DNA from: Rubrivivax sp.
GTDB lineage: Bacteria > Pseudomonadota > Gammaproteobacteria > Burkholderiales > Burkholderiaceae_C
DNA: 40,133 nucleotides
Assembly (NCBI GenBank): GCA_016789865.1
Contig: JAEUPC010000028.1
Span: forward strand, 1-40,133
Direction of reading: 5' to 3'
Part shown: positions 6,543-26,378 of the stretch, piece after piece
Position numbering within the stretch: position 1 is the first letter of the stretch
Layout of the letters: each line of letters starts with the position of its first letter
The notes under the pieces: model-generated
Seen by the model: the letters and a program-made list of their open reading frames with translations, nothing else
Told to the model about the DNA's origin: nothing
Databases searched by the model: none
Translations under genes and position numbers: made by a program

Positions 6543-6584
6543 TTGAAGCGCGTCAAGGTCGGGCCGGCCGACCGGCCCTAGCCT
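6543..6584 (+). promoter_or_regulatory. FNR/DNR box and -10 element before the DUF2249 gene
   Basis: TTGAA-GCGC-GTCAA at 6543-6556 matches the FNR/DNR consensus at 8 of 10 positions. Its centre predicts transcription from about 6591. TAGCCT at 6579-6584 is then exactly at -12 to -7. The start codon at 6620 follows a leader of about 29 bases with a ribosome site. Confidence 0.6.
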
Positions 6585-6619: not shown

Positions 6620-6913
6620 GTGACCATCGCCGCCGAGCTCATCGACGTCCGCATCGTGCCGCCGCCGCGGCGGCACCCGCTGATCTTCGGCACCTTCGAC
6701 ACGCTGGAGCTCGGGGAGGGCTTCGAGATCGTCAACGACCATGACCCGGCGCCGCTGCGCGCGCACTTCGAACGCACGCGTCCCGGGCAGTACGTGTGGC
6801 GCTACCTGGAGACCGGCCCGCTGCGCTGGCATGTGCGCATCGACCGCGTGGCCAGCGGGCCGGTCGTCGGCTCGCCGGGCGAGTGCCACGCCTGCAGTTG
6901 CCACGGCGCCTGA
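6620..6913 (+). CDS. DUF2249 domain protein
   Basis: Small cytoplasmic protein of 97 residues beginning with GTG at 6620, preceded by the ribosome site AGGGAGAG. The DUF2249 core is clear: IDVR, then PPRRHPLIFGTFDTLELGEGFEIVNDHDP, then HFERTRPGQYVWRYLETGPLRWHVRI. The function is not established, but DUF2249 genes recur beside denitrification and NO-response genes, as here. The C-terminus carries a short cysteine/histidine cluster (ECHACSCHGA), a possible metal or heme site. It has its own FNR/DNR-type promoter and converges with the Rrf2 gene. Confidence 0.85.
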   Translation: MTIAAELIDVRIVPPPRRHPLIFGTFDTLELGEGFEIVNDHDPAPLRAHFERTRPGQYVWRYLETGPLRWHVRIDRVASGPVVGSPGECHACSCHGA

Positions 6914-6951: not shown

Positions 6952-7458
6952 CTAGCTGCGGCCCTGGGCGCGCACCATCTTGAGCATCGTGTCGACGGTG
7001 ATCGAGCCGAAGGTCGCGATCGCCGTCTGATCGATCTCCTCCAGCACCTGGCCGAGTGCACGATCGACCGCGCTGGCGCTGCCGTTCGGGCTGCCGTTCG
7101 TGCCCTCGTTCGTGCCGTCGTTCGTGCCGTCGTTCGTGCCGTCGTTCGTGCCCTCGTTCGTGCCACCGCCCGCGGCCGCCAGCCCGTTGCTGCCTTCCGC
7201 ACCCAGTGACTCGAACAGCCGGATCACGTCCAGCAGCGTGAGGCGCTTCGGGTTGGCCACGAAGCGGTAGCCGCCGCCCACGCCCCGCACCGACTCGACG
7301 ATGCCGGCGCGCACCAGTTCCGACAGCACCTTGGCCAGATGGTGGGCCGACTCGCCGAACTTGCCGGCCACCTCGCCGGCGGCCACGTGCTCGCCGGGGC
7401 GGGCAGCGAACTCCAGCACGCTGTACAGCGCCAGCTGGGTGTTCTTCTGCAGCTTCAT
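6952..7458 (-). CDS. Rrf2-family transcriptional regulator without cysteines
   Basis: 168-residue winged-helix regulator of the NsrR/IscR family. Residues 1-70 match the family closely: MKLQKNTQLALYSVLEFAA, a helix-turn-helix around residues 28-50 (VAGKFGESAHHLAKVLSELV) and the wing GIVESVRGVGGGYRFVANP. Where NsrR-type proteins carry three cluster-binding cysteines (about residues 90-106), this protein has a glycine-rich loop with six GTN(E/D/G) units at residues 98-122, and there is no cysteine anywhere. It therefore cannot bind an Fe-S cluster through family cysteines. Its ATG overlaps the stop of the upstream GNAT gene by four bases. Possible targets are the sites at 8021-8030 and 24706-24724 (inference). 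Confidence 0.88.
   Translation of the reverse strand: MKLQKNTQLALYSVLEFAARPGEHVAAGEVAGKFGESAHHLAKVLSELVRAGIVESVRGVGGGYRFVANPKRLTLLDVIRLFESLGAEGSNGLAAAGGGTNEGTNDGTNDGTNDGTNEGTNGSPNGSASAVDRALGQVLEEIDQTAIATFGSITVDTMLKMVRAQGRS
7083..7164. repeat. 12-bp tandem repeat in the Rrf2 gene
   Basis: About six copies of a 12-base unit (GTTCGTGCCGTC on the plus strand, with GTC/CTC variation in the last position) encode the GTND/GTNE units of the Rrf2 protein. The unit is a multiple of three, so copy-number change keeps the frame. The near-identical copies suggest recent slippage. Confidence 0.9.
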
Positions 7459-7955
7459 GGGCGGGCGCCGGCCGCCGGGCCGATGTCCAGCTCCAGCGGG
7501 ATCAGCCGGCCGGCGGTCAGACCCTGGCTGCGGAAGAACGACAGGATGAGCGTGTTGTCGCGCGCCAGCATCGTGCGCAGCTTGTCCACGCCCACGCGCT
7601 CGAAGCGCTCGCGCATCGCGGCCAGCAGCGCCGTGCCCACCCCGCGCTGGCGCACCCGCGGGTCGACGTCGATCGCGAACACCCAGCCGCAGGGCGGCGA
7701 GCCGAACTCCCAATCGCGCACCTCGCCGATGACGAAGCCGCACACCTGTTGCCGACTGACCGCCACCAGGAAGTGCCTGAGGCCCTGCCCGGCCACACCG
7801 TAGCGGCGGTAGACCCGCTGCCAGTAGTCGGCCTTGTGCAGCCCGGTCACGGTGGCGTCCAGCGCGATGACCTGCGGCAGGTCGGCAGCCTTCACGGGCC
7901 GCACCTGCAGGGCCGGCTCGGGCGCGGCCGCACCCGTGGCAACGCGCTTGGGCAT
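7455..7955 (-). CDS. GNAT-family N-acetyltransferase
   Basis: Predicted acetyl-CoA-dependent N-acetyltransferase of 166 residues; the substrate is unknown. ATG 7955 is preceded by GAGGG. An in-frame GTG at 7979 would add eight residues. The acetyl-CoA-binding motif A is VDPRVRQRGVGTALL, preceded by the beta-strand WVFAIDV; motif B ends with DNTLILSFFRSQGL. The N-terminal DLPQVIALDATVTGLHKADYWQRV resembles both GNAT domains of the protein at 25267-26343. It is translationally coupled to the downstream Rrf2 gene, so the two probably act together, for example with the regulator controlling the pair. Confidence 0.85.
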   Translation of the reverse strand: MPKRVATGAAAPEPALQVRPVKAADLPQVIALDATVTGLHKADYWQRVYRRYGVAGQGLRHFLVAVSRQQVCGFVIGEVRDWEFGSPPCGWVFAIDVDPRVRQRGVGTALLAAMRERFERVGVDKLRTMLARDNTLILSFFRSQGLTAGRLIPLELDIGPAAGARP

Positions 7956-7988
7956 CCGTGTTTTCCCTCGGTGGCTCACGGGGCGGGG

Positions 7989-8030
7989 ACGATCCAGATC
8001 AAGTCAAAACCTGCATTCCAGTACCAGAAT
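7989..8030 (+). promoter_or_regulatory. Possible FNR-type promoter of the liv-pad-hcr operon
   Basis: ACGAT-CCAG-ATCAA at 7989-8002 matches the FNR consensus at 8 of 10 positions, with a perfect right half. Placed at -41.5 it predicts transcription from about 8037, which puts CAGAAT (8025-8030) exactly at -12 to -7. The region diverges from the GNAT-Rrf2 genes. This fits anaerobic induction of aromatic catabolism, as known for the FNR homologue AadR in Rhodopseudomonas; the link here is inference. Confidence 0.4.
8015..8030. promoter_or_regulatory. Imperfect palindrome ATTCCAGTACCAGAAT
   Basis: Inverted repeat, 12 of 16 positions symmetric, overlapping the proposed -10 element of the livK promoter. 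On the minus strand it reads ATTCTGGTAC, which matches ATTCTGGTAT at 24706-24715 before the hemerythrin gene at nine of ten positions. It may be an operator of the adjacent Rrf2 regulator, but this is not proven. Confidence 0.35.
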
Positions 8031-8117
8031 GATCCTGAAGCGCATTCTAGCCACCCTGCCCCCTGTCCCCTTCGGCGTAGGGGGTTCACGGCCGCGCCTG
8101 CGGCAAGGAGATTCCCG

Positions 8118-9332
8118 ATGAGCATCCGTCGCCTGGCTCTGGGCGTGGCCCGACGCATCACCGCCCACATGACGGACCGCATGGCGCGCTGCGTCGGCGG
8201 CGGCGCCCTCGCCGCTGCGCTGCTGCCGTGGGCGGCTTTCGCGCCCGCCGCGCACGCCCAGGAACCCATCCGCGTCGGCACCTTCCTGTCCGTCACCGGC
8301 CCGGCGTCGTTCCTCGGCGACCCCGAGTTGAAGACGCTGGAGATGCAGGTCGAGGCGATCAACGCCGCCGGCGGCGTGCTCGGCCGCAAGCTGCAGCTGG
8401 TCAGCTACGACGACGCCGGCGACGCCGAGAAGGCGCGCACCTTCGCCAAGCGCTTGCTCGAGCAGGACAAGGTCGACGTCATCGTCGGCGGCTCGACCAC
8501 CGGCACGACGATGGCCGCGGTGCCGCTGGTGGAAGCGGCCGGGGTGCCGTTCATCTCGCTGGCCGGCGCCGTGGTGATCGTCGAGCCGGTGAAGAAGTGG
8601 GTCTTCAAGACCCCGCACACCGACCGCATGGCCTGCGACAAGATCTTCGTCGACATGAAGGCGCGCGGGCTGACGAAGGCCGCGCTCATCTCCGGCAGCG
8701 GCGGCTTCGACAAGAGCATGCGCGGCGAATGCCTGAAGGTGGCCGGCAACCACGGCGTGCAGATCGTCGCTGACGAGACCTACGGCGCGGCCGACACCGA
8801 CATGACCGCCCAGCTCACCAAGATCAAGGGCAGCGGCGCGCAGGCGGTGCTGAATGCCGGCTTCGGCCAGGGCCCGGCGATCGTCACGCGCAACCACAAG
8901 CAGGTGGGCGTGGCGCTGCCGCTGTACCAGTCGCACGGCGTGGCCTCCAAGGAGTACATCAAGCTCGCGGGCGACGCCGCCGAGGGCGTGCGGCTGCCCG
9001 CCGCGGCGCTGCTGGTGGCCGACCTGCTGGCCGCCGGTGACCCGCAAAAGCCCGTCGTCACCGCCTACCGCAACGCCTTCGAGGGCAAGTACAAGTCCGA
9101 GGTTTCCACCTTCGGCGGCCACGCACTGGACGGCCTGATGATCGCCGTGAACGCGATGAGGGCTGCCGGCAGCACCGACAAGACCAAGGTGCGTGAGGCG
9201 ATCGAGGCCACCAAGGGCTACGTCGGCACCGGCGGCGTGGTCAACATGTCGGCCACCGACCACATGGGCCTGGACCTGAGCGCGTTCCGCATGCTCGAGG
9301 TGAAGGGCGGCAACTGGTCGCTGGTCAAGTAG
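8118..9332 (+). CDS. ABC transporter substrate-binding protein, branched-chain/aromatic acid type (LivK-like)
   Basis: Periplasmic binding protein of 404 residues, first gene of an ABC uptake operon. AAGGAG lies seven bases before ATG 8118. A long signal peptide spans residues 1-47 (AHA-QEP cleavage); internal Met18 or Met22 could also be starts. The mature part is a type I periplasmic-binding domain (IRVGTFLSVTGPASFLGDPELK, LEMQVEAINAAGGVLGRKLQLVSYDD, VDVIVGGSTTG). Followed by complete LivHMGF subunits and then by arylacetate genes, it more likely binds phenylacetate, 4-hydroxybenzoate or similar aromatic acids than leucine. That specificity is inferred from context only. Confidence 0.9.
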   Translation: MSIRRLALGVARRITAHMTDRMARCVGGGALAAALLPWAAFAPAAHAQEPIRVGTFLSVTGPASFLGDPELKTLEMQVEAINAAGGVLGRKLQLVSYDDAGDAEKARTFAKRLLEQDKVDVIVGGSTTGTTMAAVPLVEAAGVPFISLAGAVVIVEPVKKWVFKTPHTDRMACDKIFVDMKARGLTKAALISGSGGFDKSMRGECLKVAGNHGVQIVADETYGAADTDMTAQLTKIKGSGAQAVLNAGFGQGPAIVTRNHKQVGVALPLYQSHGVASKEYIKLAGDAAEGVRLPAAALLVADLLAAGDPQKPVVTAYRNAFEGKYKSEVSTFGGHALDGLMIAVNAMRAAGSTDKTKVREAIEATKGYVGTGGVVNMSATDHMGLDLSAFRMLEVKGGNWSLVK

Positions 9333-9381: not shown

Positions 9382-10266
9382 ATGTCCGGCTCCTGGCTGC
9401 AATTCGTCGCCGGCGGCTTGACCGCCGGCGCCATCTATGCGCTCGTCGCGCTGGGCTTCTCGATCGTCTACAACGCCAGCCACGCCATCAACTTCGCGCA
9501 GGGCGAGTTCGTGATGCTGGGCGGCATGGGTGCCGTGTCGCTGGTGGCGCTGGGCCTGCCGCTGTGGCTGGCGGTGCCGCTGGCGGTGGCCGGTGCGGCG
9601 GTCGTCGGCGTGCTCGTGCAGCGGCTGGCGCTGCAGCGCGCGCAGGCCGGCGGCCAAGCCGACGTGGTGACGCTGATCATCATCACCATCGGCGTGGCGC
9701 TGTTCCTGCGTGGGGCGGCCCAGGTGGTGTGGGACAAGCGCATCCATGCGCTGCCGGCCTTCGGCGGCAGCGAGCCGCTGCGCCTGGGCGGCGCCACCTT
9801 GCTGCCGCAAAGCCTGTGGGTGTTCTTCGGCAGCGCGCTGGCGGTGCTCGCGCTCGGCTGGTTCTTCGGCCGCACGCTGTATGGCAAGGCGATGCGCGCC
9901 ACCGCCATCAACCCGCTGGCCGCGCGGCTGATGGGCATCTCCACCCGTGGCGTGATGCGCGTGAGCTTCGCGCTCGCTGCGGCGCTGGGGGCGCTGGGTG
10001 GCGTGCTCACCGCGCCCATCACCTTCACCTCGTACGACGTGGGCGTGATGCTGGGGCTGAAGGGTTTTGCCGCCGCCATCCTCGGCGGCCTGGGCAGCTT
10101 CGGCGGCGCGGTGGCCGGCGGCCTGCTGCTCGGGCTGCTCGAAGGCCTGAGCGCAGGCTTCGTGTCCTCGGCCTACAAGGACGCGCTGGCCTTCGTCGTC
10201 ATCCTCGGCGTGCTGTTCTTCCTGCCCGGAGGCATTGCCGGTGCACGCGGCAGCGAACGTGTCTGA
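9382..10266 (+). CDS. ABC transporter permease LivH-like
   Basis: Inner-membrane permease of 294 residues with eight or so hydrophobic helices. The LivH signature is clear: GGLTAGAIYALVALGFSIVYNASHAINFAQGEFVMLG near the start, and GLKGFAAAILGGLGSFGGAVAGGLLLGLLE near residues 224-254. It pairs with LivM to form the channel for the ligand delivered by the binding protein at 8118. It starts 49 bases after livK with a weak ribosome site, and its stop overlaps the start of livM. Confidence 0.93.
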   Translation: MSGSWLQFVAGGLTAGAIYALVALGFSIVYNASHAINFAQGEFVMLGGMGAVSLVALGLPLWLAVPLAVAGAAVVGVLVQRLALQRAQAGGQADVVTLIIITIGVALFLRGAAQVVWDKRIHALPAFGGSEPLRLGGATLLPQSLWVFFGSALAVLALGWFFGRTLYGKAMRATAINPLAARLMGISTRGVMRVSFALAAALGALGGVLTAPITFTSYDVGVMLGLKGFAAAILGGLGSFGGAVAGGLLLGLLEGLSAGFVSSAYKDALAFVVILGVLFFLPGGIAGARGSERV

Positions 10267-11284
10267 ACGCGCCCCGACCGGCAGCGCGCGCGCCCCCGAG
10301 GTCGCGCCGGCCGGCGTGCCGGCACCCGCCGCGGCCTCGGTGCGCCGGGCGCGCCTGAAGTCGCCGCGCACGCTCTCGCTGGCGGCCTTTGCCGCGCTGC
10401 TGGTGGCGCTGCCGCCGTTCTTCCCGAACAACTTCTTCTTCGAAGTGGCGATCCTGGTCGCCATCAACGCCATCGTCTGCGTCGGGCTGAACCTGCTCAT
10501 CGGCTATGCCGGGCAGATCAGCCTCGGCCATGCCGCGTTCTACGCGCTCGGCGGCTACGGCAGCGCCATCCTCGCGGCGCGCTGGGGCTGGCCGGTGTGG
10601 GTGTCGCTGCCGGTGGCGGTGGCCGGGGTCGGCGCGCTCGCCTGGGCCGTCGGCCGCCCGACGCTGCGGCTCAAGGGCCACTACCTGGCGATGGCCACGC
10701 TGGGCCTGGGCGTCATCGCGTCCATCGTGCTCACCAACGAAGACCGCCTCACCGGCGGCCCCGACGGCATGAGCGTGCCGCCGCTGGTCGTGCTCGGCCA
10801 GCCGGTGCAGGGCGAACTGCTGTGGTACGCCATCGTCGCCGCCGCGCTGTGGCTGACGGTGCTGCTGGCGCTGAACATGATCGATTCGCCGATCGGCCGC
10901 GCGCTGCGCGCGCTGCACGGCTCGGAGGTGGCCGCGGGCACGCTGGGCATCGACGCGGCGCGCTTCAAGCTGATGGTGTTCGTGCAGTCGGCGCTCATCG
11001 CCGCCACCGCGGGTGCGCTCACCGCGCACTACGCCGGCTTCATCACGCCGGCCAAGGCGTCGTTCCTGCACTCGGTGGAGCTGGTCATCATGGTGGTCTT
11101 CGGCGGCATGGCCTCGGTGTGGGGTGCGGTCGTCGGCGCCGCGGTGCTGACGCTGTTGCCGCAGTTCCTCACCGTGCTGAAGGACTACGAGATGATGGTC
11201 TTCGGCGCGGTGCTCATCGCCACCATGGTGGGCATGCCGCACGGCATCGTGCCGACGCTGGCGCGGCTCATCGGCCGGCGCTGA
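10259..11284 (+). CDS. ABC transporter permease LivM-like
   Basis: Second permease, 341 residues. I chose GTG 10259, which overlaps the livH stop (TGA at 10264). An in-frame TTG at 10235 would extend the protein by eight residues. The first 40 residues are an Ala/Pro-rich cytoplasmic leader. The LivM core follows: AINAIVCVGLNLLIGYAGQISLGHAAFYALGGY, LRLKGHYLAMATLGLGVIA and VELVIMVVFGGMASVWGAVVGA. It works with LivH and the two ATPases encoded next. Confidence 0.92.
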   Translation: MSERAPTGSARAPEVAPAGVPAPAAASVRRARLKSPRTLSLAAFAALLVALPPFFPNNFFFEVAILVAINAIVCVGLNLLIGYAGQISLGHAAFYALGGYGSAILAARWGWPVWVSLPVAVAGVGALAWAVGRPTLRLKGHYLAMATLGLGVIASIVLTNEDRLTGGPDGMSVPPLVVLGQPVQGELLWYAIVAAALWLTVLLALNMIDSPIGRALRALHGSEVAAGTLGIDAARFKLMVFVQSALIAATAGALTAHYAGFITPAKASFLHSVELVIMVVFGGMASVWGAVVGAAVLTLLPQFLTVLKDYEMMVFGAVLIATMVGMPHGIVPTLARLIGRR

Positions 11285-11307
11285 ACCTGCCGGGAAGCGA
11301 GGTCACG

Positions 11308-12081
11308 ATGACGCTGCTGCAGGTTGCCGGCTTGAGCAAGCGCTTCGGCGGCCTGCAGGCCATCGACGGCGTGTCGTTCGAGGTGCAGGCGGGCAAGGTG
11401 TACGCCGTCATCGGCCCCAATGGCGCGGGCAAGACGACACTGCTGAACCTGCTGACCGGCGTGTACACGCCCGATGCCGGGCGCATCGTGCTCGGCGGGC
11501 GCGACCTCACCGGCCAGCCGACGCACCGCTTCGCCGCCGCCGGCCTGGCCCGCACGTTCCAGAACCTGCAGGTCTTCTTCAACATGAGCGCGCTCGAGAA
11601 CGTGATGACCGGGCGCCACCTGCACGAGAACCGCTCGCTGCTTTCGGCCTTGATGCGCCTGGAGCCCGCGGTGTGGGCCGAGCACGCCAGCGGCGCGCGC
11701 GCCGCAGCGCTGATGCAGCGTGTGGGCCTGGCCGCCTGGTTGCACGCGCGCGCCGACGCGATGCCCTACGGCGCGCTGAAGCGCCTGGAGATTGCGCGCG
11801 CACTGGCCACCGAGCCGAAGCTCCTGCTGCTGGACGAGCCCGCCGCCGGCCTGAACCCCACCGAAGCACGCGAGATCGACACGCTCATCCGCGGCCTGGC
11901 CGCCGAGGGCATGGCGGTGCTGCTGGTGGAGCACAACATGCAGCTCGTGATGGAGGTGTCCGACCGCGTGCTGGTGCTCGAGCGCGGCGCGCGGCTGGCC
12001 GAAGGCACGCCAGCCGAAGTGAGCCGCGACCCGCGCGTCATCGAGGCCTATCTCGGCGCCGAGGAGCCGGCCCATGCCTGA
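11308..12081 (+). CDS. ABC transporter ATP-binding protein LivG-like
   Basis: Cytoplasmic ATPase of 257 residues. GAGG lies five bases before ATG 11308. Walker A is GPNGAGKT (about residue 38), the signature region is YGALKRLEIARALA, Walker B is LLLLDEPAAGLNP, and the switch histidine is in VLLVEHNM. The LivG-specific features are a longer segment after Walker A (AGLARTFQNLQVFFNMSALENVM) and the absence of a canonical LSGGQ. It ends eight bases inside livF, so the two ATPases are probably made in equal amounts. Confidence 0.94.
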   Translation: MTLLQVAGLSKRFGGLQAIDGVSFEVQAGKVYAVIGPNGAGKTTLLNLLTGVYTPDAGRIVLGGRDLTGQPTHRFAAAGLARTFQNLQVFFNMSALENVMTGRHLHENRSLLSALMRLEPAVWAEHASGARAAALMQRVGLAAWLHARADAMPYGALKRLEIARALATEPKLLLLDEPAAGLNPTEAREIDTLIRGLAAEGMAVLLVEHNMQLVMEVSDRVLVLERGARLAEGTPAEVSRDPRVIEAYLGAEEPAHA

Positions 12082-12784
12082 GCCGCAGCCGCTGCTGCAG
12101 GTGCGGGGCCTGGCCAGCCGCTACGGGCGCATCCCGGCGCTGGACGGCGTCTCGCTGCACGTGGCGGCCGGCGAACTGGTGGCCATCGTCGGTGCCAACG
12201 GCGCCGGCAAGACGACGCTGCTGCGCACGCTGTCGGGTGTGCAGCCGCTGGCCGCCGGCACGATCCGCTTCGACGGCGCCGACATCGGCCGCGAGACACC
12301 CCGCCAGCGCGTGCAGCGCGGCATGGTGCAGGTGCCCGAAGGGCGGCAGGTGTTCGGCGCGCTCAGCGTCGAAGACAACCTGCGGCTGGGCGCCTTCGCG
12401 CGCGGCACCGGCGGCACGGTGGACACGGTGTGGGCCATGTTTCCGGCGCTGGCCGGCAAGCGCAGCGAAGCCGCCGGCACGCTGTCGGGCGGCCAGCAGC
12501 AGATGCTGGCCATCGGTCGCGCGCTGATGGCCGACCCGCGCCTGCTGCTGCTCGACGAGCCGAGCATGGGCCTGGCCCCCAAGCTGGTGGCCGAGATCTT
12601 CAACCACGTCAAGGCGCTCAAGGCGCGCGGCACGACGATCCTGCTGGTCGACCAGAACGCCCGCGCGGCGCTGGCCATCGCCGACCGCGGCTACGTGATG
12701 GAGACCGGGCGCCTGGTGACCGAAGGCGCCGCGGCCGAACTGCTGCGCGACGCCGCGGTGCGCAAGGCGTACCTCGGGCAATGA
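12074..12784 (+). CDS. ABC transporter ATP-binding protein LivF-like
   Basis: Second ATPase of the importer, 236 residues. Walker A is GANGAGKTT (about residue 37), the signature is LSGGQQQML, Walker B is LLLLDEPSMGLAP and the switch region is ILLVDQNARAAL. The LivF-typical QVPEGRQVFGALSVEDNL follows Walker A. Its last codons precede a 55-base gap before the thioesterase gene, which has its own AAGGA ribosome site. Confidence 0.94.
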   Translation: MPEPQPLLQVRGLASRYGRIPALDGVSLHVAAGELVAIVGANGAGKTTLLRTLSGVQPLAAGTIRFDGADIGRETPRQRVQRGMVQVPEGRQVFGALSVEDNLRLGAFARGTGGTVDTVWAMFPALAGKRSEAAGTLSGGQQQMLAIGRALMADPRLLLLDEPSMGLAPKLVAEIFNHVKALKARGTTILLVDQNARAALAIADRGYVMETGRLVTEGAAAELLRDAAVRKAYLGQ

Positions 12785-12839: not shown

Positions 12840-13253
12840 ATGAAACCCACCCTGCAGACCGGTCTCACCGCCGAAGCCTCGTTCGAAGTCGACCGCGGGC
12901 GCACGATCGACTTCATGGGCGAGGCCGCGCGCGTCTATGCCACGCCGATGCTGGTGCGCGACATCGAGATGACCTGCCGCAACCTGCTGCTGGCCCACCT
13001 CGATGCCGGCGAAGACTCGGTGGGCACGCGGGTGGAGATCGACCACATCGGCGCCACGCTGCTGGGCATGCAGGTCACGCTCACGGTGCGCATCGCCGAA
13101 CTGAACGGCCGGGCCGTGGTGTTCGAGGTCGAGGGCCGCGACGCGGTGGAACCGATCGTGCGCGGCAAACACTCACGATTCGTCGTCGACGTGACCAAGA
13201 CCGCGCAGCGCCTGGCCGCGAAGGCCGAGAAGGCGCGGGCCGCCAAGGCCTGA
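12840..13253 (+). CDS. FlK-like hotdog-fold acyl-CoA thioesterase
   Basis: Small hotdog-fold protein of 137 residues. The fluoroacetyl-CoA thioesterase FlK uses Thr42, Glu50 and His76. Here Thr35 (ATPML), Glu43 (RDIEMT) and His69 (EIDHIGAT) have exactly the same spacing (8 and 26 residues), and the next strand G-MQVTLTVRIAELNGRAVVFEVEG fits the fold. It is encoded between the importer and padB. A plausible role is hydrolysing a dead-end or excess arylacyl-CoA, or the CoA ester product of PadBCD, to recycle free CoA; the substrate is inference. The C-terminus is a short Lys/Ala-rich tail (KAEKARAAKA). Confidence 0.8.
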   Translation: MKPTLQTGLTAEASFEVDRGRTIDFMGEAARVYATPMLVRDIEMTCRNLLLAHLDAGEDSVGTRVEIDHIGATLLGMQVTLTVRIAELNGRAVVFEVEGRDAVEPIVRGKHSRFVVDVTKTAQRLAAKAEKARAAKA

Positions 13254-13304: not shown

Positions 13305-16088
13305 ATGCCGGCGACCTCCAAGCCCCACCCCGCCACGCCGGGCGTGCGCAAGGTGCCGACCTACTGCTACCAATGTGTGGCCGGCCCCGACCTGCTGACG
13401 GTCAAGGTGGAAGACGGCGTGGCCACCGAGGTCGAGCCGAACTTCTGCGCCGCCGGCATCCACCCGGCCGGCGGCAAGGTCTGCGTCAAGGCCTACGGGC
13501 TGGTGGAGAAGACGCACAACCCGCACCGCATCCTGGCGCCGATGAAGCGCACGAACCCGAAGAAGGGGCGCAGCGAAGACCCGGGCTTCGTCGAGATCTC
13601 GTGGGACGAGGCGTTTGCGCTGGTCACCGACAAGCTGCAAGCCATCCGTGCGCGCGGCCTCGTCGACGAGTCGGGCTACCCGCGCGTGGCGGCCAGCTTC
13701 GGCGGCGCCGGCACGCCGCAGTCGTACATGGGCACGTTCCCGGCGTTCCTTGCGGCCTGGGGTCCGGTGGACATGGGCTTCGGCTCGGGCCAGGGCGTCA
13801 AGTGCTACCACTCCGAGCACCTGTACGGCGAGTTCTGGCACCGCGCCTTCATCGTCACGCCGGACACGCCGCTGACCAACTACCTGATCTCCTGCGGCTC
13901 CAACATCGAGGCCTCGGGCGGCGTCACCGGCGTCGCACGCCACGCGCAGGCCCGCGTGCGCGGCATGAAGCGCGTGCAGGTCGAGCCGCACCTGTCGATC
14001 ACCGGCGCCTGCTCGGCCGAGTGGGTGCCGATCAAGCCCAAGACCGACGCCGCGTTCCTGTTTGCGCTCATCCACGTGCTGCTGCACGAGGTGGCGCGCG
14101 AGCAGCTCGACCTGCCCTTCCTCGCCACACGCACCGCGTCACCCTACCTCGTGGGGCCCAACGGCTACTACCTGCGCGACCGCACGAGTCGCAAGCCGCT
14201 GGTCTGGGACCACGTTCGGGGCGCCGCCCGCGAGCACGATGCCGCCGACCTGCACGAGGCGCTCGAAGGCCGCTACGAGGTCGCGGCGATCGAGGTCGGC
14301 CCCGACGGCGACCTGCTCGCCGACAGCGGGCGCGATGGCCGGCTGCCCGGCACCACCGCCTTCAGCTGCCTCGTCGAGCACATGCGGCCCTACAGCCCCG
14401 AGTGGGCCGAGAAGGTCTGCGACGTGCCCGCAGCGACGATGCGCCGCATCGCCAACGAGTGGATCGCCCACGCCTGCATCGGCCAGACGATCGAGATCGA
14501 CGGCCTGACGCTGCCCTACCGCCCGGTGGCGGTGACGCTGGGCAAGACGGTCAACAACGGCTGGGGCGGCTTCGAGTGCTGCTGGGCGCGCACGCTGATG
14601 GCCACGCTGGCCGGCGCGCTGGAAGTGGCCGGCGGCACGATCGGCACCACCATCCGGCTGACGCGGCCGATGTCGCACCGCCACGAGAGCGTCAAGCCCG
14701 GGCCCGACGGCTTCATGCACTACCCGCTGAACCCGACGAGCAAGGAGCATTGGTCGCCGAACCCGAACATCCGCAACGCCTACCGCACGATGGTGCCGCT
14801 GGCCGCCGACGGGCCGTGGAGCCAGGCGCTGGGGCCCACGCACTTCTCGTGGCTCTTCCTCGACGAGACGCCCAAGGGCCTGCCGCGCGTGACGCTGCCC
14901 GAGGCCTGGTTCGTCTACCGCACGAACCCCGGCGTCTCGTTCTGGGACACGGCGGCGCTGGGCGAGAAGATGGCGCGCTTCCCGTTCACGGTGGCGTTCG
15001 CCTACACGCACGACGAGACGAACCACTTCGCCGACCTGCTGCTGCCCGACGCGATGGACCTCGAGAGCCTGCAGCTGTGGCGCGTGGGCGGCACCAAGTA
15101 CCAGGAATCGTTCTGGGACCACCAGGGCTTCGCGCTGCGCCAGCCGGTGATGGCGCCGCATGGCCAGGCGCGCGACTTCACCGACATCAGCACCGAACTG
15201 GCGCACCGCGCCGGCATCGCCGAGAAGTACTACGCCGCCATCAACAAGGGCGCCGGCGGCGTGCCGCTGAAGAGCGAGTTCGGCGACTTCTCGCTCGACA
15301 CGCGCGCGCGCCACGACCGCGAGCAGATCTGGGACGCCGTGTGCCGCGCCGCCAGCGCCGAGGTCAGCGACGGCGTTGAGGCGCACGGCCTGCCCTGGTG
15401 GAAGGAGCACGGCCTGGCGACGAAGCCCTTCCCGCGCAGCGAGTGGTACCTGCTGCCGACGATGGTGAAAGAGGGCCTGCGCTTCGAGCTGCCCTACCAG
15501 GAACGGCTGCTGCGCGTGGGCCGCGAGCTGGGCCGCCGGCTGCACGAACACGACATGCACTGGTGGGACACGCAGTTGAAGGAGTACCAGGGCCTGCCGG
15601 TGTGGAAGGACTTTCCGGGCCTGTGGGAGGCGAGCGTCGCGCGGGCCGGCGGCCGCGTCGAGGACTACCCGTTCTGGCTGCTCACCGCGCGCAGCATGCA
15701 GTACGCCTGGGGCGCCAACGCCGGCATGCAGCTGATGCGCGAGGTGTCGCAGAACATCGCCGGCCACCAGGGCGTGATCCTCAACACCGGCGCGGCCGGC
15801 CGGCTGGGCATCGCCGACGGCGATGCGGTCGAGATCGCGACGCCGCGGCGCAAGGTGCGCGCCCGCGCCGTGCTGCGCCAGGGCATCCGGCCCGACACGC
15901 TGCTGCTGATCGGCCAGTTCGACCACTGGGCGACGCCGCACGCCAAGGACTTCGACATGGCGAGCATGAATTCGCTCACGACGATGTCGATGGAACTCAC
16001 CGACGCCACCGGGTCGGGCGCCGACGTCGTGCGCGTGAAGCTGGCGAGGGCGCGCTCGCTGGCGCCGCGCGAAGGAGCCGCGGCATGA
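13305..16088 (+). CDS. padB: Phenylacetyl-CoA:acceptor oxidoreductase molybdopterin subunit (PadB-like)
   Basis: Large catalytic subunit, 927 residues, of the DMSO-reductase molybdoenzyme family. PadBCD oxidises phenylacetyl-CoA at the alpha carbon to phenylglyoxylate under anaerobic conditions, passing electrons to quinone. The N-terminal Fe-S region has Cys21, Cys24, Cys48 and Cys60 (CYQC, NFC, GGKVCVKA), a spacing unlike the usual C-x2-C-x3-C pattern. A likely molybdenum ligand is Cys167 in SGQGVKCYHSEH. The end has the usual molybdopterin-dinucleotide cap (SRMGIADGDAVEIATPRRKVRARAVL-like segment near residues 836-862). There is no Tat signal, consistent with a cytoplasm-facing enzyme acting on a CoA ester. 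Its stop overlaps the padC ATG. Substrate assignment rests on the PadC, PadD and PaaK neighbours. Confidence 0.85.
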   Translation: MPATSKPHPATPGVRKVPTYCYQCVAGPDLLTVKVEDGVATEVEPNFCAAGIHPAGGKVCVKAYGLVEKTHNPHRILAPMKRTNPKKGRSEDPGFVEISWDEAFALVTDKLQAIRARGLVDESGYPRVAASFGGAGTPQSYMGTFPAFLAAWGPVDMGFGSGQGVKCYHSEHLYGEFWHRAFIVTPDTPLTNYLISCGSNIEASGGVTGVARHAQARVRGMKRVQVEPHLSITGACSAEWVPIKPKTDAAFLFALIHVLLHEVAREQLDLPFLATRTASPYLVGPNGYYLRDRTSRKPLVWDHVRGAAREHDAADLHEALEGRYEVAAIEVGPDGDLLADSGRDGRLPGTTAFSCLVEHMRPYSPEWAEKVCDVPAATMRRIANEWIAHACIGQTIEIDGLTLPYRPVAVTLGKTVNNGWGGFECCWARTLMATLAGALEVAGGTIGTTIRLTRPMSHRHESVKPGPDGFMHYPLNPTSKEHWSPNPNIRNAYRTMVPLAADGPWSQALGPTHFSWLFLDETPKGLPRVTLPEAWFVYRTNPGVSFWDTAALGEKMARFPFTVAFAYTHDETNHFADLLLPDAMDLESLQLWRVGGTKYQESFWDHQGFALRQPVMAPHGQARDFTDISTELAHRAGIAEKYYAAINKGAGGVPLKSEFGDFSLDTRARHDREQIWDAVCRAASAEVSDGVEAHGLPWWKEHGLATKPFPRSEWYLLPTMVKEGLRFELPYQERLLRVGRELGRRLHEHDMHWWDTQLKEYQGLPVWKDFPGLWEASVARAGGRVEDYPFWLLTARSMQYAWGANAGMQLMREVSQNIAGHQGVILNTGAAGRLGIADGDAVEIATPRRKVRARAVLRQGIRPDTLLLIGQFDHWATPHAKDFDMASMNSLTTMSMELTDATGSGADVVRVKLARARSLAPREGAAA

Positions 16089-16813
16089 CGCGCTGGGCGA
16101 TGGTCGCCGACCTGCGCCGCTGCGTCGGCTGCCAGACCTGCACCGCGGCGTGCAAGCACGCCAACGCCACGCCGCCCGGCGTGCAATGGCGGCGTGTGCT
16201 CGACATCGAGACCGGCGAGTACCCCGACGTGCGCCGCAGCTTCGTGCCGGTGGGCTGCCAGCACTGCGACGAGCCGCCGTGCCTGGACGTGTGCCCGAGC
16301 ACCGCGACGCGCAAGCGCGCCGACGGCATCGTCACCATCGACTACGACCTGTGCATCGGCTGCGCCTACTGTGCGCTCGCCTGCCCGTACCAGGCGCGCT
16401 ACAAGACCGACCGCGCCAGCTTCGCCTACGGCAAGCCGAGCGCGCACGAAACACAGCGGCACGACGCCGGGCGACTCGCGGTCTCCACCAAGTGCACCTT
16501 CTGCGTCGAGCGCATCGACGCCGGCACCGCCGCCGGCCTCACGCCGGGGGTCGACCCGGCGGCCACGCCGGCCTGCGTCAACGCCTGCATCGCCGATGCG
16601 CTCGCCTTCGGCGACCTCGACGACCCGCAGAGCAACGTCAACCGGCTGCTGGCCGAGAACCAGCACTTCCGCATGCACGAGGAACTGGGCACCGGGCCCG
16701 GCTTCTTCTACCTCTGGGACAGCAGCCCCCAGGGCGGCGCGAGCCCGGCGCGCCCCCCGAGAGGGCTCGAGGGGCCCGGCGAAGGCGCAACCGCTCGCGA
16801 GGTGACCCCATGA
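16085..16813 (+). CDS. padC: PadC-like four-cluster ferredoxin subunit
   Basis: Electron-transfer subunit of 242 residues, starting with ATG in an ATGA overlap with padB. Cysteine groups for four [4Fe-4S] clusters are visible: CVGCQTCTAAC near residue 13, CQHCDEPPCLDVC near 59, CIGCAYCALAC near 95, and CTFC near 139 with CVNAC near 164. This is the usual PsrB/DmsB/NrfC arrangement. It would carry electrons from the PadB molybdenum site to PadD. The last 30 residues (from about 212) are an unusual Gly/Pro/Ala/Arg-rich tail encoded by a GC-rich palindromic stretch. The tail may be a repeat captured into the reading frame. Confidence 0.88.
   Translation: MTRWAMVADLRRCVGCQTCTAACKHANATPPGVQWRRVLDIETGEYPDVRRSFVPVGCQHCDEPPCLDVCPSTATRKRADGIVTIDYDLCIGCAYCALACPYQARYKTDRASFAYGKPSAHETQRHDAGRLAVSTKCTFCVERIDAGTAAGLTPGVDPAATPACVNACIADALAFGDLDDPQSNVNRLLAENQHFRMHEELGTGPGFFYLWDSSPQGGASPARPPRGLEGPGEGATAREVTP
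16735..16800. repeat. GC-rich palindromic repeat within the padC 3' end
   Basis: A run containing CCCCCCGAGAGGG and CTCGAGGGGCCCGG can form a bulged hairpin and encodes the odd Pro/Gly/Arg tail of PadC. CTCGAGGGG (16766-16774) also occurs in the perfect palindrome at 26349-26360, suggesting a family of dispersed elements in this genome. Confidence 0.5.
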
Positions 16814-17661
16814 GCGGCGCCGGCCTGCCCGCGAGCTTCGGCCCGCACCCACGCCAGCAGGGCAACTGGGACCTGCGCGCCGCGATCAACTTCACGGCCG
16901 GCGGCGTGGGCAGCGGGCTGATCTTCACGCACGCCTTGGCGGGCACCGCGGCTTCGTGGCCGTGGCTCGTGGGCGGTGCGCTGATCGGGCTGGGCCTCTT
17001 CGCGGTGTGGCTGGAGATCGGCCGACCGCTGCGCGCGATGAACGTCTTCCGGCACCCCGGGCGTTCGTGGATGACGCGCGAGGCGATCGCCGCCACCGTG
17101 CTCTTCGCCATGCTGGCACTGGCGCTGCTGGGCACCCCTGGCGCGGCGTGGGGCGCGGGCCTCGTCGCGGCGGTGTTCGCGTACTGCCAGGCGCGCATCG
17201 TGCGCGGGGCGCGCGGCATTCCCACCTGGCGCGAGCCGCGCGTGGTGCCGTTGCTGGTGGCCACCGCGCTGGCCGAAGGCGCCGGGCTGTACGTGCTGGT
17301 CACCGGCACGCCGCGCTGGCTGGCCGCGCTGCTGCTGACCGCCGCGCTCGCGGCACGCCTGGCCAGCTGGCTGGCCTGGCGGCGACGCCTGGCCACGGCC
17401 CCGGCGAGAGCCCTGGCCGCAGTGGACCGCGCCGGCCACGTCTTCAACGCCGCCACGCTGCTGGCGCTGGCGGCGTGCGTGGTGGCGTGGCTGTCGCCGC
17501 CGCTGCCGGCCGCGCCCGCCGTGGCGTGGCTGTGGCCGTTGGCCGGTGTGCTGGCGCTGGCCGGCGGGCTGTGGTTCAAGGTCACGCTGGTGGTGCGCGG
17601 CGCCTACACGCAGGGCTTCGCGCTGCCGCACCTGCCGGTGCGCGGCGCGCGCCGCGGCTGA
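16810..17661 (+). CDS. padD: PadD-like membrane anchor (DmsC/NrfD type)
   Basis: Integral membrane subunit of 283 residues with about eight hydrophobic helices, starting in an ATGA overlap with padC. Family-like parts are NFTAGGVGSGLIFTHAL, the RPLRAMNVFRHPGRSWMTREA loop typical of DmsC-like anchors, and a final helix followed by GAYTQGFALPHLPVRG. It anchors the PadBC pair to the inner membrane and probably passes electrons to the quinone pool, linking arylacetate oxidation to nitrate or nitrite respiration. The exact role of PadD is less well established than those of PadB and PadC. Confidence 0.85.
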   Translation: MSGAGLPASFGPHPRQQGNWDLRAAINFTAGGVGSGLIFTHALAGTAASWPWLVGGALIGLGLFAVWLEIGRPLRAMNVFRHPGRSWMTREAIAATVLFAMLALALLGTPGAAWGAGLVAAVFAYCQARIVRGARGIPTWREPRVVPLLVATALAEGAGLYVLVTGTPRWLAALLLTAALAARLASWLAWRRRLATAPARALAAVDRAGHVFNAATLLALAACVVAWLSPPLPAAPAVAWLWPLAGVLALAGGLWFKVTLVVRGAYTQGFALPHLPVRGARRG

Positions 17662-17674
17662 AGGGGGCTTCGTC

Positions 17675-19087
17675 ATGGGCATGCCGGCCGAGCCCTCACG
17701 TTTCGCACCTGCCGGCGCGGCGCGCGCCGCGGCGTGGACCACGCCACCGGCCGCGAACACGCCCTCGGAGGTCGAGTGCTGCTCGCGCGACGCGCTGGCC
17801 GCGCTGCAACTGGAGCGCCTGCGCGAGACGCTGCGCAACGCCTGGGACCATGTGCCATGGCAACGCGCGCGGCTGCAGGCCGCCGGCCTGCACCCCGATG
17901 CGCTGCGCTCGCCGGACGACCTGCGCCGGCTGCCGTTCATGGTCAAGGGCGACCTGCGCGAGCACTATCCGTTCGGCCTCTTCGCGCGGCCGGTGGAGCA
18001 GCTCGCGCGCATCCACGCCTCGTCGGGCACCACGGGCAAGCCCACTGTCGTGGGCTACACGCGCGGCGACCTCACCCGCTGGGCGGCGCTGATGGCGCGC
18101 TCGATGGCCGGCGCCGGCGTGCGCCCGGGCGACCTGGTGCACAACGCCTACGGCTATGGCCTCTTTACCGGCGGGCTCGGCGCGCACGCCGGCGCCGAGC
18201 ACCTGGGCTGCCCGGTGGTGCCCGTCAGTGGCGGCGGCACGGAACGCCAGGTGGCGCTGATCATGGACTTCGGGCCGCGGGTGCTGTGCGCCACGCCCTC
18301 CTACGCGCTGGCCATCGCCGAGGTCGCCGAGCAGCAAGGCGCCGACCTGCACCGCAGCCGGCTCGCCATCGGCATGTTCGGCGCCGAGCCGTGGAGCGCG
18401 GCGATGCGCCACGAGATCGAGGCGCGCCTGGGCCTGCGCGCGCACGATGTCTACGGCCTGTCGGAGATCATGGGCCCGGGCGTGGCCTGCGAGTGCGAAG
18501 CACGCGAAGGCCTGCATGGCTGGGAGGACCATTTCCTCTTCGAGCTGGTCGACCCCGACAGCGGTGAGCCGGTGGCGGAAGGCGTTGCGGGCGAGCTCGT
18601 CATCACCACACTGACCAAGGAAGCGCTGCCGATGCTGCGCTACCGCACACGCGACATCACGCGCCTGACCACCCAGCGCTGCGCCTGTGGCCGCACGCAC
18701 CTGCGCATCCTGCGCGTGGCCGGGCGCAACGACGACATGCTCATCGTGCGTGGCGTCAACGTCTACCCGTCGCAGATCGAGGCGGTGCTCGTCGGCCGGC
18801 CGGGGCTGGCACCGCATTACCAGCTGGTGATCGAGCGCGTGGGCGCACTGGACCACCTGCGCATCGAGGTCGAGGCGCTGCCCGGCTGGCCGCAAGACGG
18901 CTACGCGGCCGCGGCCCAGGACACGCGCCACCACGTCAAGTCGCTCATCGGCCTCAACGCCGACGTGGCGGTGATGGCACCCGGCACGCTGCCGCGCTCG
19001 CAGGGCAAGGCCCAACGCGTGCGCGACCTGCGTCCCGCGGCCGAAGGCGCCGGCGCCGCCACCCGAGGGCCATCCACCGAGGAATGA
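17675..19087 (+). CDS. paaK: Phenylacetate-CoA ligase (PaaK/PadJ-like)
   Basis: AMP-forming ligase of 470 residues that activates phenylacetate (and perhaps 4-hydroxyphenylacetate) to its CoA thioester, the substrate of PadBCD. ATG 17675 follows AAGGGGG by seven bases. The phosphate-binding loop is SSGTTGKP (residues 116-123). PaaK-typical segments are AWDHVPWQRARLQAAG, GYGLFTGGLGAHAGAEHLG, VYGLSEIMGPGVACEC, RYRTRDITRL and GRNDDMLIVRGVNVYPSQIE; the C-terminal LPRSQGKAQRVRD carries the catalytic lysine of the family. It begins 13 bases after padD, and its stop overlaps the first hcrC ATG. Confidence 0.93.
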   Translation: MGMPAEPSRFAPAGAARAAAWTTPPAANTPSEVECCSRDALAALQLERLRETLRNAWDHVPWQRARLQAAGLHPDALRSPDDLRRLPFMVKGDLREHYPFGLFARPVEQLARIHASSGTTGKPTVVGYTRGDLTRWAALMARSMAGAGVRPGDLVHNAYGYGLFTGGLGAHAGAEHLGCPVVPVSGGGTERQVALIMDFGPRVLCATPSYALAIAEVAEQQGADLHRSRLAIGMFGAEPWSAAMRHEIEARLGLRAHDVYGLSEIMGPGVACECEAREGLHGWEDHFLFELVDPDSGEPVAEGVAGELVITTLTKEALPMLRYRTRDITRLTTQRCACGRTHLRILRVAGRNDDMLIVRGVNVYPSQIEAVLVGRPGLAPHYQLVIERVGALDHLRIEVEALPGWPQDGYAAAAQDTRHHVKSLIGLNADVAVMAPGTLPRSQGKAQRVRDLRPAAEGAGAATRGPSTEE

Positions 19088-19560
19088 TGATGCGCGCCAA
19101 GCTGATCGAACTGCAGGTCAATGGCCGCGCGCACGCGGTGGCCGCCACCGAAGGCGTGCTGCTGCTGGACGTGCTGCGCGAGACGCTGCGCCTGACCGGC
19201 ACCAAACAGGGCTGCGACGGCGGCGAATGCGGCGCCTGCACCGTGCTGGTCGACGGCCAGCCGCGGCTGGCCTGCATCACGCTGGCCGCCAGCGTGCAGG
19301 GCCGCGCGATCGAGACCATCGAGGCGCTGGCCACGCAGGGGCGCCTCGCGGCGCTGCAGCGCGCCTTCCACGAAAAGCTCGGCGCGCAGTGCGGCTTCTG
19401 CACGCCGGGCATGGTGATGGCCGCCGAAGCGCTGCTGCGCGAGGTGCCGCGGCCCAGCGATGCGCAGGTGCGCGAGGCGCTGGCCGGCAACCTGTGCCGC
19501 TGCACCGGTTACGTGAAGATCGTCGAGGCGGTGCTCTGCGCCGCGGGAGAGCCCCCATGA
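19084..19560 (+). CDS. hcrC: 4-Hydroxybenzoyl-CoA reductase [2Fe-2S] subunit HcrC
   Basis: Small subunit, 158 residues, of the xanthine-oxidase-family reductase that removes the para-hydroxyl group of 4-hydroxybenzoyl-CoA, giving benzoyl-CoA. Two [2Fe-2S] clusters are fully visible: plant-type Cys44, Cys49, Cys52, Cys64 (GCDGGECGACTVLVDG) and the second cluster Cys103, Cys106, Cys138, Cys140 (CGFCTPG and NLCRCTGY). Three consecutive ATG codons at 19084, 19087 and 19090 make the exact start uncertain. The first overlaps the paaK stop. The downstream hcrA start overlaps its stop by four bases. Confidence 0.93.
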   Translation: MMMRAKLIELQVNGRAHAVAATEGVLLLDVLRETLRLTGTKQGCDGGECGACTVLVDGQPRLACITLAASVQGRAIETIEALATQGRLAALQRAFHEKLGAQCGFCTPGMVMAAEALLREVPRPSDAQVREALAGNLCRCTGYVKIVEAVLCAAGEPP

Positions 19561-21989: not shown

Positions 21990-22972
21990 TGCTGCCCGCC
22001 GGCGAACTGGAACTGCTGCGCCCCACCACCCTCGAGGACGCGGCGGCGCTGCTGCTGCGCCCGCGCGCGCGCCTGGTGGCCGGCGGCACCGACCTGCTGC
22101 CCAACCTGCGCCGCGGCATCGGCACGCCGAGGTGGCTGGTGGATCTCGGCGCCATCGAAGGCTTTGATGCCGTGCGCGAAGACGGAGAAGGCCTGCGCCT
22201 GGGTGCCGGCCTCACCCTGTCGGCGTTGATCCGCCGCGCGCAGGCCACCGACCTGGCCGAGGTCTGGCCGGCGTTGGTGCATGCCGCCTCGCAGGTGGCC
22301 GGCCCCGGCCACCGCAGCGCGGCCACGGTGGGCGGCAATCTGTGCCAGGACACGCGCTGCATCTACTACAACCAGAGCGCGTGGTGGCGGCAGGCCAACG
22401 AGCACTGCCTGAAGCACGAGGGCACCACCTGCCACGTCGCGCCGCAAGGCCAGCGCTGCCACGCCGCCTACGCCGGCGACCTGGCGCCGGCGCTGATCGC
22501 CTACGGCGCGACGGTGGAGCTGGTGAGCCTGGAGGGCCGACGCACGCTGCCGCTGGCCGAGCTGTACCGCGACGACGGCGCCGCGCACCTGACGATGGCG
22601 CCCCACGAGCTGCTGGCCAGCGTGTGGCTGCCCCGCCCGGCCGCCGGCAGCGCGAGCGCGTATCGCAAGATGCGCTCACGCGCTGCGATGGACTTCCCGC
22701 TGGCCGGCGTGGCCATGGTGCTGCGGCTGCGGCAAGGCACGATCGCCGAGTTGGCGGTGGGTGTGAGCGGCACCAACTCGCACCCCGTGCGGCTGCAAGG
22801 CACCGAAACGCTGCTGGGCCAGGCGCCCGGCGAGGAGGCCGCGCGCGCACTCGGCAAGCTGGTCGCCAAGCAGGTGAGCCCCATGCGCAGCACCGTCACG
22901 GCGGCGCATTACCGCCGGCTGGTGGCGGCGACGGCGGCCGAGCGCCTGCTGCGGGAGCTGGCCTCGCGATGA
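21989..22972 (+). CDS. hcrB: 4-Hydroxybenzoyl-CoA reductase FAD/[4Fe-4S] subunit HcrB
   Basis: FAD-binding subunit of 327 residues. The FAD motifs are AGGTDLLPNLRRG and GHRSAATVGGNLCQD. The diagnostic extra loop of HcrB is present: Cys124, Cys140, Cys148 and Cys157 have spacings 15, 7 and 8, the same as Cys122/138/146/155 that bind the extra [4Fe-4S] cluster in the Thauera aromatica enzyme. This loop separates true 4-hydroxybenzoyl-CoA reductases from ordinary xanthine or CO dehydrogenase medium subunits, so it is the strongest evidence for the whole hcrCAB assignment. Start and stop overlap hcrA and the ligase gene. Confidence 0.95.
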   Translation: MLPAGELELLRPTTLEDAAALLLRPRARLVAGGTDLLPNLRRGIGTPRWLVDLGAIEGFDAVREDGEGLRLGAGLTLSALIRRAQATDLAEVWPALVHAASQVAGPGHRSAATVGGNLCQDTRCIYYNQSAWWRQANEHCLKHEGTTCHVAPQGQRCHAAYAGDLAPALIAYGATVELVSLEGRRTLPLAELYRDDGAAHLTMAPHELLASVWLPRPAAGSASAYRKMRSRAAMDFPLAGVAMVLRLRQGTIAELAVGVSGTNSHPVRLQGTETLLGQAPGEEAARALGKLVAKQVSPMRSTVTAAHYRRLVAATAAERLLRELASR

Positions 22973-24743: not shown

Positions 24744-25223
24744 ATGTCTTCTGCCCGCCACGTCTGCCAGGTGCTCGACGAGGAACACCGCGCCACGCTC
24801 GACCTGCTCGCCCGCGTGCGCCGCGCCGCGGTCGACCCGGAACCGGCGGCCCTCGCCGCCATCGCCCCCGGTCTGGCGCGCGCACTGACGCTGGAGATCG
24901 GACGCCACTTCGACTTCGAAGAGCAGCAGCTCTTCCCGCGCCTGCATGAAGGCGGCGCCGGCGATCTGGCCGCGCTGCTGCTCGAGGAACACCACACTTT
25001 GCGCGCCGTGGCCGACGAGCTGCTCGCCCCGGCGCGCCGCCTGGCCGCGGGCCAGCCGCTGTCGGCCGACGCAGTGACCTCGATGCGCCGCGCCGCGCTG
25101 GAGTGGGTGGAGCGGCTCGAGGCGCATGTCCACAAGGAGACGCTGGCGCTGCTGCCCGAGCTCGAGCGCGTGCTCGACGTGGCCAGCGACGCCGAGCTCG
25201 CGATGGCCTACGCGGCGCAGTAG
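24744..25223 (+). CDS. Hemerythrin HHE-domain protein
   Basis: Cytoplasmic four-helix di-iron protein of 159 residues. Probable iron ligands are His15 (DEEHRAT), His55 and Glu59 (HFDFEE), His83 or His84 (EEHHTLR), and His128 and Glu132 (HVHKE), the complete hemerythrin set. It lacks the N-terminal ScdA domain of YtfE/RIC repair proteins, so it is a short form. Such proteins in denitrifiers respond to NO or oxygen and may repair Fe-S clusters or buffer NO or oxygen. Its own promoter region with an FNR-like box and a palindromic operator supports a redox or NO-responsive role. Confidence 0.88.
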   Translation: MSSARHVCQVLDEEHRATLDLLARVRRAAVDPEPAALAAIAPGLARALTLEIGRHFDFEEQQLFPRLHEGGAGDLAALLLEEHHTLRAVADELLAPARRLAAGQPLSADAVTSMRRAALEWVERLEAHVHKETLALLPELERVLDVASDAELAMAYAAQ

Positions 25224-25266
25224 GCGCCGCCGGCGCAAGCCCAGCCTACGAAAGGGAACCAGGTCC

Positions 25267-26343: not shown

Positions 26344-26348
26344 GTCAG

Positions 26349-26360
26349 CCCCTCGAGGGG
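26349..26360. repeat. Perfect 12-bp palindrome CCCCTCGAGGGG
   Basis: Lies in the 35-base gap between the tandem-GNAT and DUF59 genes. It shares CTCGAGGGG with the padC 3' repeat. It may be a remnant of a dispersed GC-rich element or a weak internal processing or termination hairpin. Confidence 0.45.
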
Positions 26361-26378
26361 ACGGGACGCGGCCGCCGC

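Follow-up and report, generated by a model that had tools for sequence, protein, structure and literature searches.

The window analysed here is a 40,133-nucleotide stretch of contig JAEUPC010000028.1 from Rubrivivax sp. It carries a gene for an Rrf2-family regulator beside an acetyltransferase gene, followed on the opposite strand by transport and aromatic-metabolism genes.

6952–7458, minus strand: gene for a cysteine-free, BadM-like Rrf2-family regulator (profile searches, model, alignment)
7083–7164, minus strand: 12-bp tandem array coding for GTN(E/D/G) units, an expanded interdomain linker (repeat call, alignment, model)
7455–7979, minus strand: GNAT acetyltransferase, BadL-like (PF00583, 40.7 bits; conserved pair)
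7989–8002, minus strand: FNR/AadR-like box TTGATCTGGATCGT next to the palindrome (consensus score)
8014–8031, no strand given: palindrome CATTCCAGTACCAGAATG in the GNAT–liv intergenic region, a candidate operator (site searches, conservation)
8118–9332, plus strand: periplasmic binding protein of LivK type, encoded divergently from the GNAT (PF13458, 194.7 bits; PDB neighbours)
9382–12784, plus strand: livHMGF-type permease and ATPase genes (gene calls, translations named by eye)
12840–13253, plus strand: FlK-type thioesterase (PF22636, 107.6 bits; frequent neighbour)
13305–17661, plus strand: three-subunit molybdopterin oxidoreductase with Mo subunit, Fe–S subunit and DmsC-type anchor (profile searches)
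17675–19087, plus strand: phenylacetate-CoA ligase-like protein (TIGR02155, 558.4 bits, under the cut-off of 646.3)
19084–22972, plus strand: 4-hydroxybenzoyl-CoA reductase genes hcrC, hcrA and hcrB (profile searches)
22969–24636, plus strand: benzoate/hydroxybenzoate-CoA-ligase-like protein (best matches NF053567 and TIGR02262, under cut-off)

The reading frame at 6952–7458 is intact, starts with ATG and is translated into 168 amino acids; the first-pass annotation had stated that it has no cysteine, and none is present. In profile searches the product scored 74.4 bits against PF02082 (cut-off 30) and passed only one NCBIfam model, that of the TIGR00738 superfamily (78.2 against 73.3); the equivalog models for NsrR, IscR, RirA and CymR all scored it far under their cut-offs. 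The family match covers residues 1 to 84–89. Together with the modelled helix–turn–helix and a helix at residues 130–152, these scores place the protein in the Rrf2 superfamily. The DNA-binding half had been described as NsrR/IscR-type; it is an Rrf2 helix–turn–helix, but a generic one. The winged-helix domain is shared with NsrR, IscR and RirA, whereas the three cluster-binding cysteines of those Fe–S sensors are missing here. Foldseek matches of the model were CymR at the top (2y75, TM 0.53), RsrR, IscR and NsrR. Cofactor-free Rrf2 proteins are known, CymR being one according to PMC5411485. The present protein resembles CymR of Bacillus and Staphylococcus in its fold and its predicted freedom from cofactor; CymR, in contrast, regulates cysteine metabolism with another partner and other targets, and identity in the Foldseek alignment is 20%.

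Homologues were collected from a genome sample holding one genome per species. The 60 genus genomes gave 17 strong matches and, at a contig edge, one fragment, in 18 genomes (one of which, G058, rests on that 30-residue match), the 299 family genomes gave 20 matches with E ≤ 1e-20, and three of six loci were taken from named contigs. The resulting near set comprises 35 loci including the window, the partial L056 and L057 being excluded. A distant set of 20 loci came from 398 phylum genomes (six loci) and a further 199 genomes (14 loci). The tree, from which the partial L055 and L038, with its run of N, were left out, has long branches that were flagged, and the join between near and distant sequences has a support of only 86/72.

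Cysteine was absent from all 35 near loci, counting the window and the 69-residue piece of L055, and no loop cysteine occurred across 33 near rows of the alignment. In contrast, 12 of 13 Rrf2 paralogues in the genus carry two or three cysteines in the loop. Among the distant relatives, 9 of 20 have one or two cysteines, placed in the loop in only two of those nine. Loop length was measured on the alignment columns between window residues E83 and R133. It is 49 residues in the window, 14–33 (median 17) in the 33 near rows and 17–19 in the 20 distant rows. Since the near orthologues are cysteine-free with shorter loops and the paralogues mostly have loop cysteines, the lack of cysteine is a trait of the clade that preceded the GTN expansion.

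These comparisons bear on the reading first put forward, in which the repeat displaced the cluster loop of a former Fe–S sensor of NsrR/IscR type, ending its sensing and leaving a constitutive repressor. The missing cysteines speak for it, as does the position of the repeat, which sits where the Fe–S-type paralogues carry theirs. Nevertheless, it is largely contradicted by the cysteine-free relatives, whose loops are not only shorter but mostly non-repetitive, and the conserved GNAT partner and palindrome described below point to an inducible system. Loss of an Fe–S loop within this lineage was rejected on the first of these grounds, and the constitutive repressor is very improbable. The first-pass annotation had named close homologues of equal loop length with a cysteine triad elsewhere as grounds for refutation; the near relatives found have shorter loops and no cysteine.

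The array itself consists of 6.8 copies of a 12-bp unit with 91% matches. Its score of 129 is the highest among the 29 tandem-repeat rows of the window, the next being 78. As assembled it is short (82 bp) and in frame, and it reads GTNE-GTND-GTND-GTND-GTNE-GTNG in nearly identical codons, so the six GTNx units reported earlier were borne out, the sixth being GTNG. A reading of the repeat as a shared domain was rejected: the hits L007–L009 matched around the repeat only, which indicates low complexity. A second whole-codon minisatellite, 9 bp × 7.9, lies at 35163–35233 inside a gene for a 1244-residue POR/TPP/DUF6537 oxidoreductase (33911–37645, minus strand).

The nearest relative, L004 on a Rubrivivax MAG contig, is 93% identical and has the longest loop after that of the window, 33 residues, with a single GTN unit and then GAN; as DNA, the two genes share 90.6% identity over 459 aligned bases, with 54 gap positions. 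With loops of 49 residues here, 33 in L004 and at least 14 in the others, tract length changes between species. The variation in loop length proposed earlier thus holds at that level; the proposal had concerned strains, which lie outside a sample of one genome per species. In the AlphaFold2 model, built from only four sequences and with a mean pLDDT of 64.8, residues 87–129 between the winged helix and helix 130–152 have pLDDT below 50. The tract is a late expansion of what is, on this model, a low-confidence and probably flexible linker, one that looks recently lengthened.

The acidic and amide residues of the six repeats had raised the idea that the Asn/Asp/Glu-rich loop is a new sensor binding a metal or another ligand. 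We give this hardly any credence, as the tract is missing from the relatives save for the one unit in the nearest, and the model is of low confidence exactly there. The tract is most likely incidental. We infer that it is neutral, although a linker of this kind could yet influence function.

The end of the GNAT gene overlaps the start of the Rrf2 gene by 4 bp, and translation of the GNAT may instead begin at the ATG at 7955. In every one of the 35 near and 20 distant loci, the gene immediately upstream of the Rrf2 gene encodes a GNAT homologue; in the window it is assigned at family level (PF00583). The livK gene follows upstream on the opposite strand in 22 of the 35 near loci, the others showing the sequence end or other genes. 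The livHMGF-type genes are conserved near the pair, and the Mo subunit of the molybdopterin oxidoreductase is a frequent neighbour.

By comparison, the window's genes for NnrS, Usp and DUF2249 are not conserved neighbours of the pair in the near loci. A role in NO response or denitrification through nnrS and DUF2249 was rejected as the main link, the block being adjacent in only two of the 34 other near loci, L004 and, without NnrS, L044. The DUF2249 gene (6620–6913), in a block with the Usp and NnrS genes, is preceded by an FNR/Dnr-like palindrome, TTGAAGCGCGTCAA, at 6543–6556. A second NnrS-family gene is found on the contig at 32577–33875 (PF05940, 235.9 bits).

The partner and its setting recall BadM and BadL of Rhodopseudomonas palustris. 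According to PMC6191541, growth of that organism on benzoate requires BadL, whose homologues acetylate aminobenzoates; binding of BadM to the badDEFGAB promoter was blocked by 2-acetamidobenzoate at 10 mM, though not at 5 mM, and more weakly by 3- and 4-acetamidobenzoate. The same source shows badL and badM clustered in further proteobacteria, Magnetospirillum and Geobacter among them. By analogy, the GNAT of the window would acetylate aromatic amines such as aminobenzoates. The pair might instead regulate aromatic genes with the repressor, or another protein, as the substrate of the GNAT. GNATs are able to modify proteins, and the two genes stand together in every locus seen; yet PMC6191541 reports no product from trials of BadL homologues on BadM, and aminobenzoates were acetylated. 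Protein acetylation is in our judgement unlikely.

The metabolic setting was read from the window and from the wider genomes. The best PDB sequence matches of the LivK-type protein (8118–9332) are 3sg0, 4dqd, 3ukj, 3tx6, 4jb0 and 3uk0, which we take to be aromatic-acid binding proteins of Rhodopseudomonas; on that assumption, the matches suggest a role in aromatic uptake. The oxidoreductase at 13305–17661 is possibly PadBCD-like. HcrA scored 1137.3 bits against TIGR03194 (cut-off 994.55), and HcrC (239.8; cut-off 257.8) and HcrB (392.3; cut-off 404.55) fell slightly short. After the hcr genes, 24771–26696 holds genes for a hemerythrin, for a 358-residue protein in which two GNAT stretches occur, and for a FeS_assembly_P protein.

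The marker enzyme of the anaerobic benzoyl-CoA pathway, OAH (TIGR03200), exceeded its cut-off in 16 of the 60 genus genomes. Both OAH and the Rrf2 gene were present in 15 genomes, Rrf2 only in three, OAH only in one and neither in 41 (Fisher p = 2.3e-10, a value that does not refer to independent events, the genomes sharing ancestry). Completeness is below 85% in the OAH-only genome, G005, and in each of the three Rrf2-only genomes; with the sample limited to the 41 genomes of 90% completeness or more, the corresponding counts are 9, 0, 0 and 32. In the genome of the window, had, oah, dch, bcrC and the start of bcrB lie on contig C203, apart from the window contig.

Direct adjacency to benzoyl-CoA reductase genes was seen in relatives. 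In four family genomes (L080, L081, L083 and L089) the pair has liv genes on one side and kor-oah-dch-bcr genes on the other, and in the distant L125 it lies within a bcr-dch-oah-had-kor cluster. Other distant relatives have the pair by hcr-like genes (L128) or beside boxC-boxB (L129); L126 and L127 have no aromatic-degradation neighbours of such kinds. The one named relative found in a plasmid collection, distant with 35.6% identity and on Agrobacterium plasmid NZ_CP123840.1 (L153), also has the GNAT–Rrf2 pair, near a gene of the benzoate-CoA ligase family and a liv-type transporter. The plasmid is predicted to be conjugative, and the pair sits on it between a molybdopterin-binding oxidoreductase gene and the transporter.

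Between the GNAT and liv genes stands the candidate operator. In 28 of the 35 near loci, the stretch upstream of the GNAT gene holds a palindrome of the form CATTCYGGTACYRGAATG with at least 13 of 18 matching bases, a threshold chosen after the sites had been viewed, the position weight matrix (PWM) likewise being built from the same sites. The seven loci below it are L047, which is cut off, L051 and L089 with 12, and L090–L093 with 11. In the distant set its presence is doubtful, 8 of 20 loci reaching 13–14 of 18 in a count without a control. An FNR-like box with at least 7 of 10 consensus bases follows the palindrome in 24 of the 28 loci, compared with 10.5% of base-shuffled segments; these controls, like those for the PWM, keep base content only. 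A sigma-54 promoter behind the conserved TGGTAC was considered and dropped by eye, the spacing being one base short and the sequence palindromic.

The exact pattern ATTCYGGTACYNGAAT occurred in 14 of the 18 genus genomes with the Rrf2 gene and in none of the other 42, against 1 of 60 for the reversed control pattern. The family sample contained it in 14 of 299 genomes (control, 1 of 299): 12 of the 20 with the Rrf2 gene, together with G165, where it adjoins a GNAT gene truncated at the contig's edge, and G095, whose copy falls inside an unrelated predicted CDS.

The GNAT-promoter site is physically linked to the Rrf2 gene, and so the unlinked sites are the informative ones. Intergenic sites between had and korA were found in L131 (G001), L132 (G029), L134 (G023) and L137 (G026), 50–110 bp from the had start, with PWM scores of 22–29 (22.1 in G023, 25.9 in G026); those in L130, L135 and L136 are weak. 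G261 has a perfect palindrome at had/korA, G022 (L133) a site 48 bp from hcrC, and G201, in which liv lies further from the pair, one site at the GNAT promoter and another at the livK promoter. Beside had/kor, L131 (6083–10441) and L134 (2735–6092) carry a second 2-oxoacid:acceptor oxidoreductase set with PadE/PadG/PadI-like matches under cut-off, which may be a phenylglyoxylate oxidoreductase.

In the window the palindrome precedes the liv and 4-hydroxybenzoyl-CoA reductase genes, and it is the only strong copy in its genome. A search allowing three mismatches returned two other palindromes there, with three mismatches each and no aromatic-gene link seen. Predicted sites stand ahead of had-oah-dch-bcr in relatives, with only a weak one at had/korA in this genome, TATTCAGGTACCGATTTA (PWM 9.9). 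Its 18-mer recurs identically in G009 and G012, 50–85 bp from had. Given this weakness, it is uncertain whether the central pathway is under such control in this genome.

The palindrome could belong to another regulator, with the Rrf2 protein acting elsewhere. Its assignment was made from sequence; among genomes carrying the Rrf2 gene, the exact match is missing from four of the 18 in the genus sample and eight of the 20 in the family sample, and L125 retains the pair inside its bcr cluster with no palindrome above PWM 9.7. None was found by PWM in the Agrobacterium locus L153. Nevertheless, in the genus and family samples exact matches occur only in genomes with the Rrf2 gene or the GNAT partner, bar the one copy inside a CDS, palindromes stand at unlinked aromatic promoters, and the GNAT-promoter palindrome is kept where liv is not adjacent (for example in L053, L084, L085 and L087). 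We hold a different owner of the site to be improbable.

The reading we favour, and hold to be probable, is a cofactor-free BadM-like repressor with a BadL-like GNAT, governing an aromatic regulon through the palindrome and released by an acetylated inducer, with a GTN linker that does not sense. The regulator and the adjoining acetyltransferase most likely switch on genes for anaerobic aromatic breakdown. Drawing on the conserved pair, its gene context, the co-occurrence with OAH, the conserved palindrome and the cysteine-free clade, as read from the genomes, we infer palindrome binding, repression and an acetylated ligand. Encoded in one operon with the GNAT, the repressor would bind the palindrome beside FNR-type boxes as a dimer and control its own operon, the divergent liv genes and the Mo-oxidoreductase and hcr genes. 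Elsewhere in the genome it would control had/oah/dch/bcr and kor, and with them anaerobic benzoyl-CoA breakdown. The GNAT would acetylate a small aromatic amine, the product being the inducer that frees the repressor from DNA. The GTN tract would have arisen by recent expansion of a minisatellite within the flexible linker that joins the winged-helix domain to the dimerisation helix, having neither replaced an Fe–S site nor gained a sensing role.

The pair reads as working like BadM/BadL because the parts are of the same kinds, an Rrf2 protein and a GNAT encoded together, and the setting of anaerobic benzoyl-CoA genes is the same. This likeness was drawn from partner gene and metabolic setting. 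FNR-type boxes lie nearby here, and in R. palustris the Crp-type regulator AadR activates the badDEFGAB operon (PMC6191541). Unlike BadM/BadL, the present system has an expanded GTN linker, lies in a Rubrivivax-like genome and has a predicted regulon spanning liv, 4-hydroxybenzoyl-CoA reductase and kor/had.

A literature search on the pair or its operator in Burkholderiales gave no report among the matches listed, as far as titles and abstract openings show; to that extent the pair, the candidate operator and the wider predicted regulon look new here. The available part of a 2024 survey (PMC10803450) places BadM solely in Alphaproteobacterial contexts, which counts against the favoured reading; a Geobacter pair is already shown in PMC6191541. 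The analysis corrects a misreading, in that missing cysteines and a repeat do not amount to a lost Fe–S sensor.

More speculatively, and less likely than not, a GNAT-made acetylated aromatic amine may be a dedicated signal within the cell throughout Burkholderiales and other Pseudomonadota, coordinating uptake and the peripheral and central anaerobic aromatic pathways via one palindromic operator beside FNR boxes, with the linker minisatellite tuning the switch in this lineage. For Rubrivivax-like bacteria and their family, the finding offers a concrete predicted regulon for anaerobic aromatic degradation, with a candidate operator and the enzyme that probably makes its inducer.
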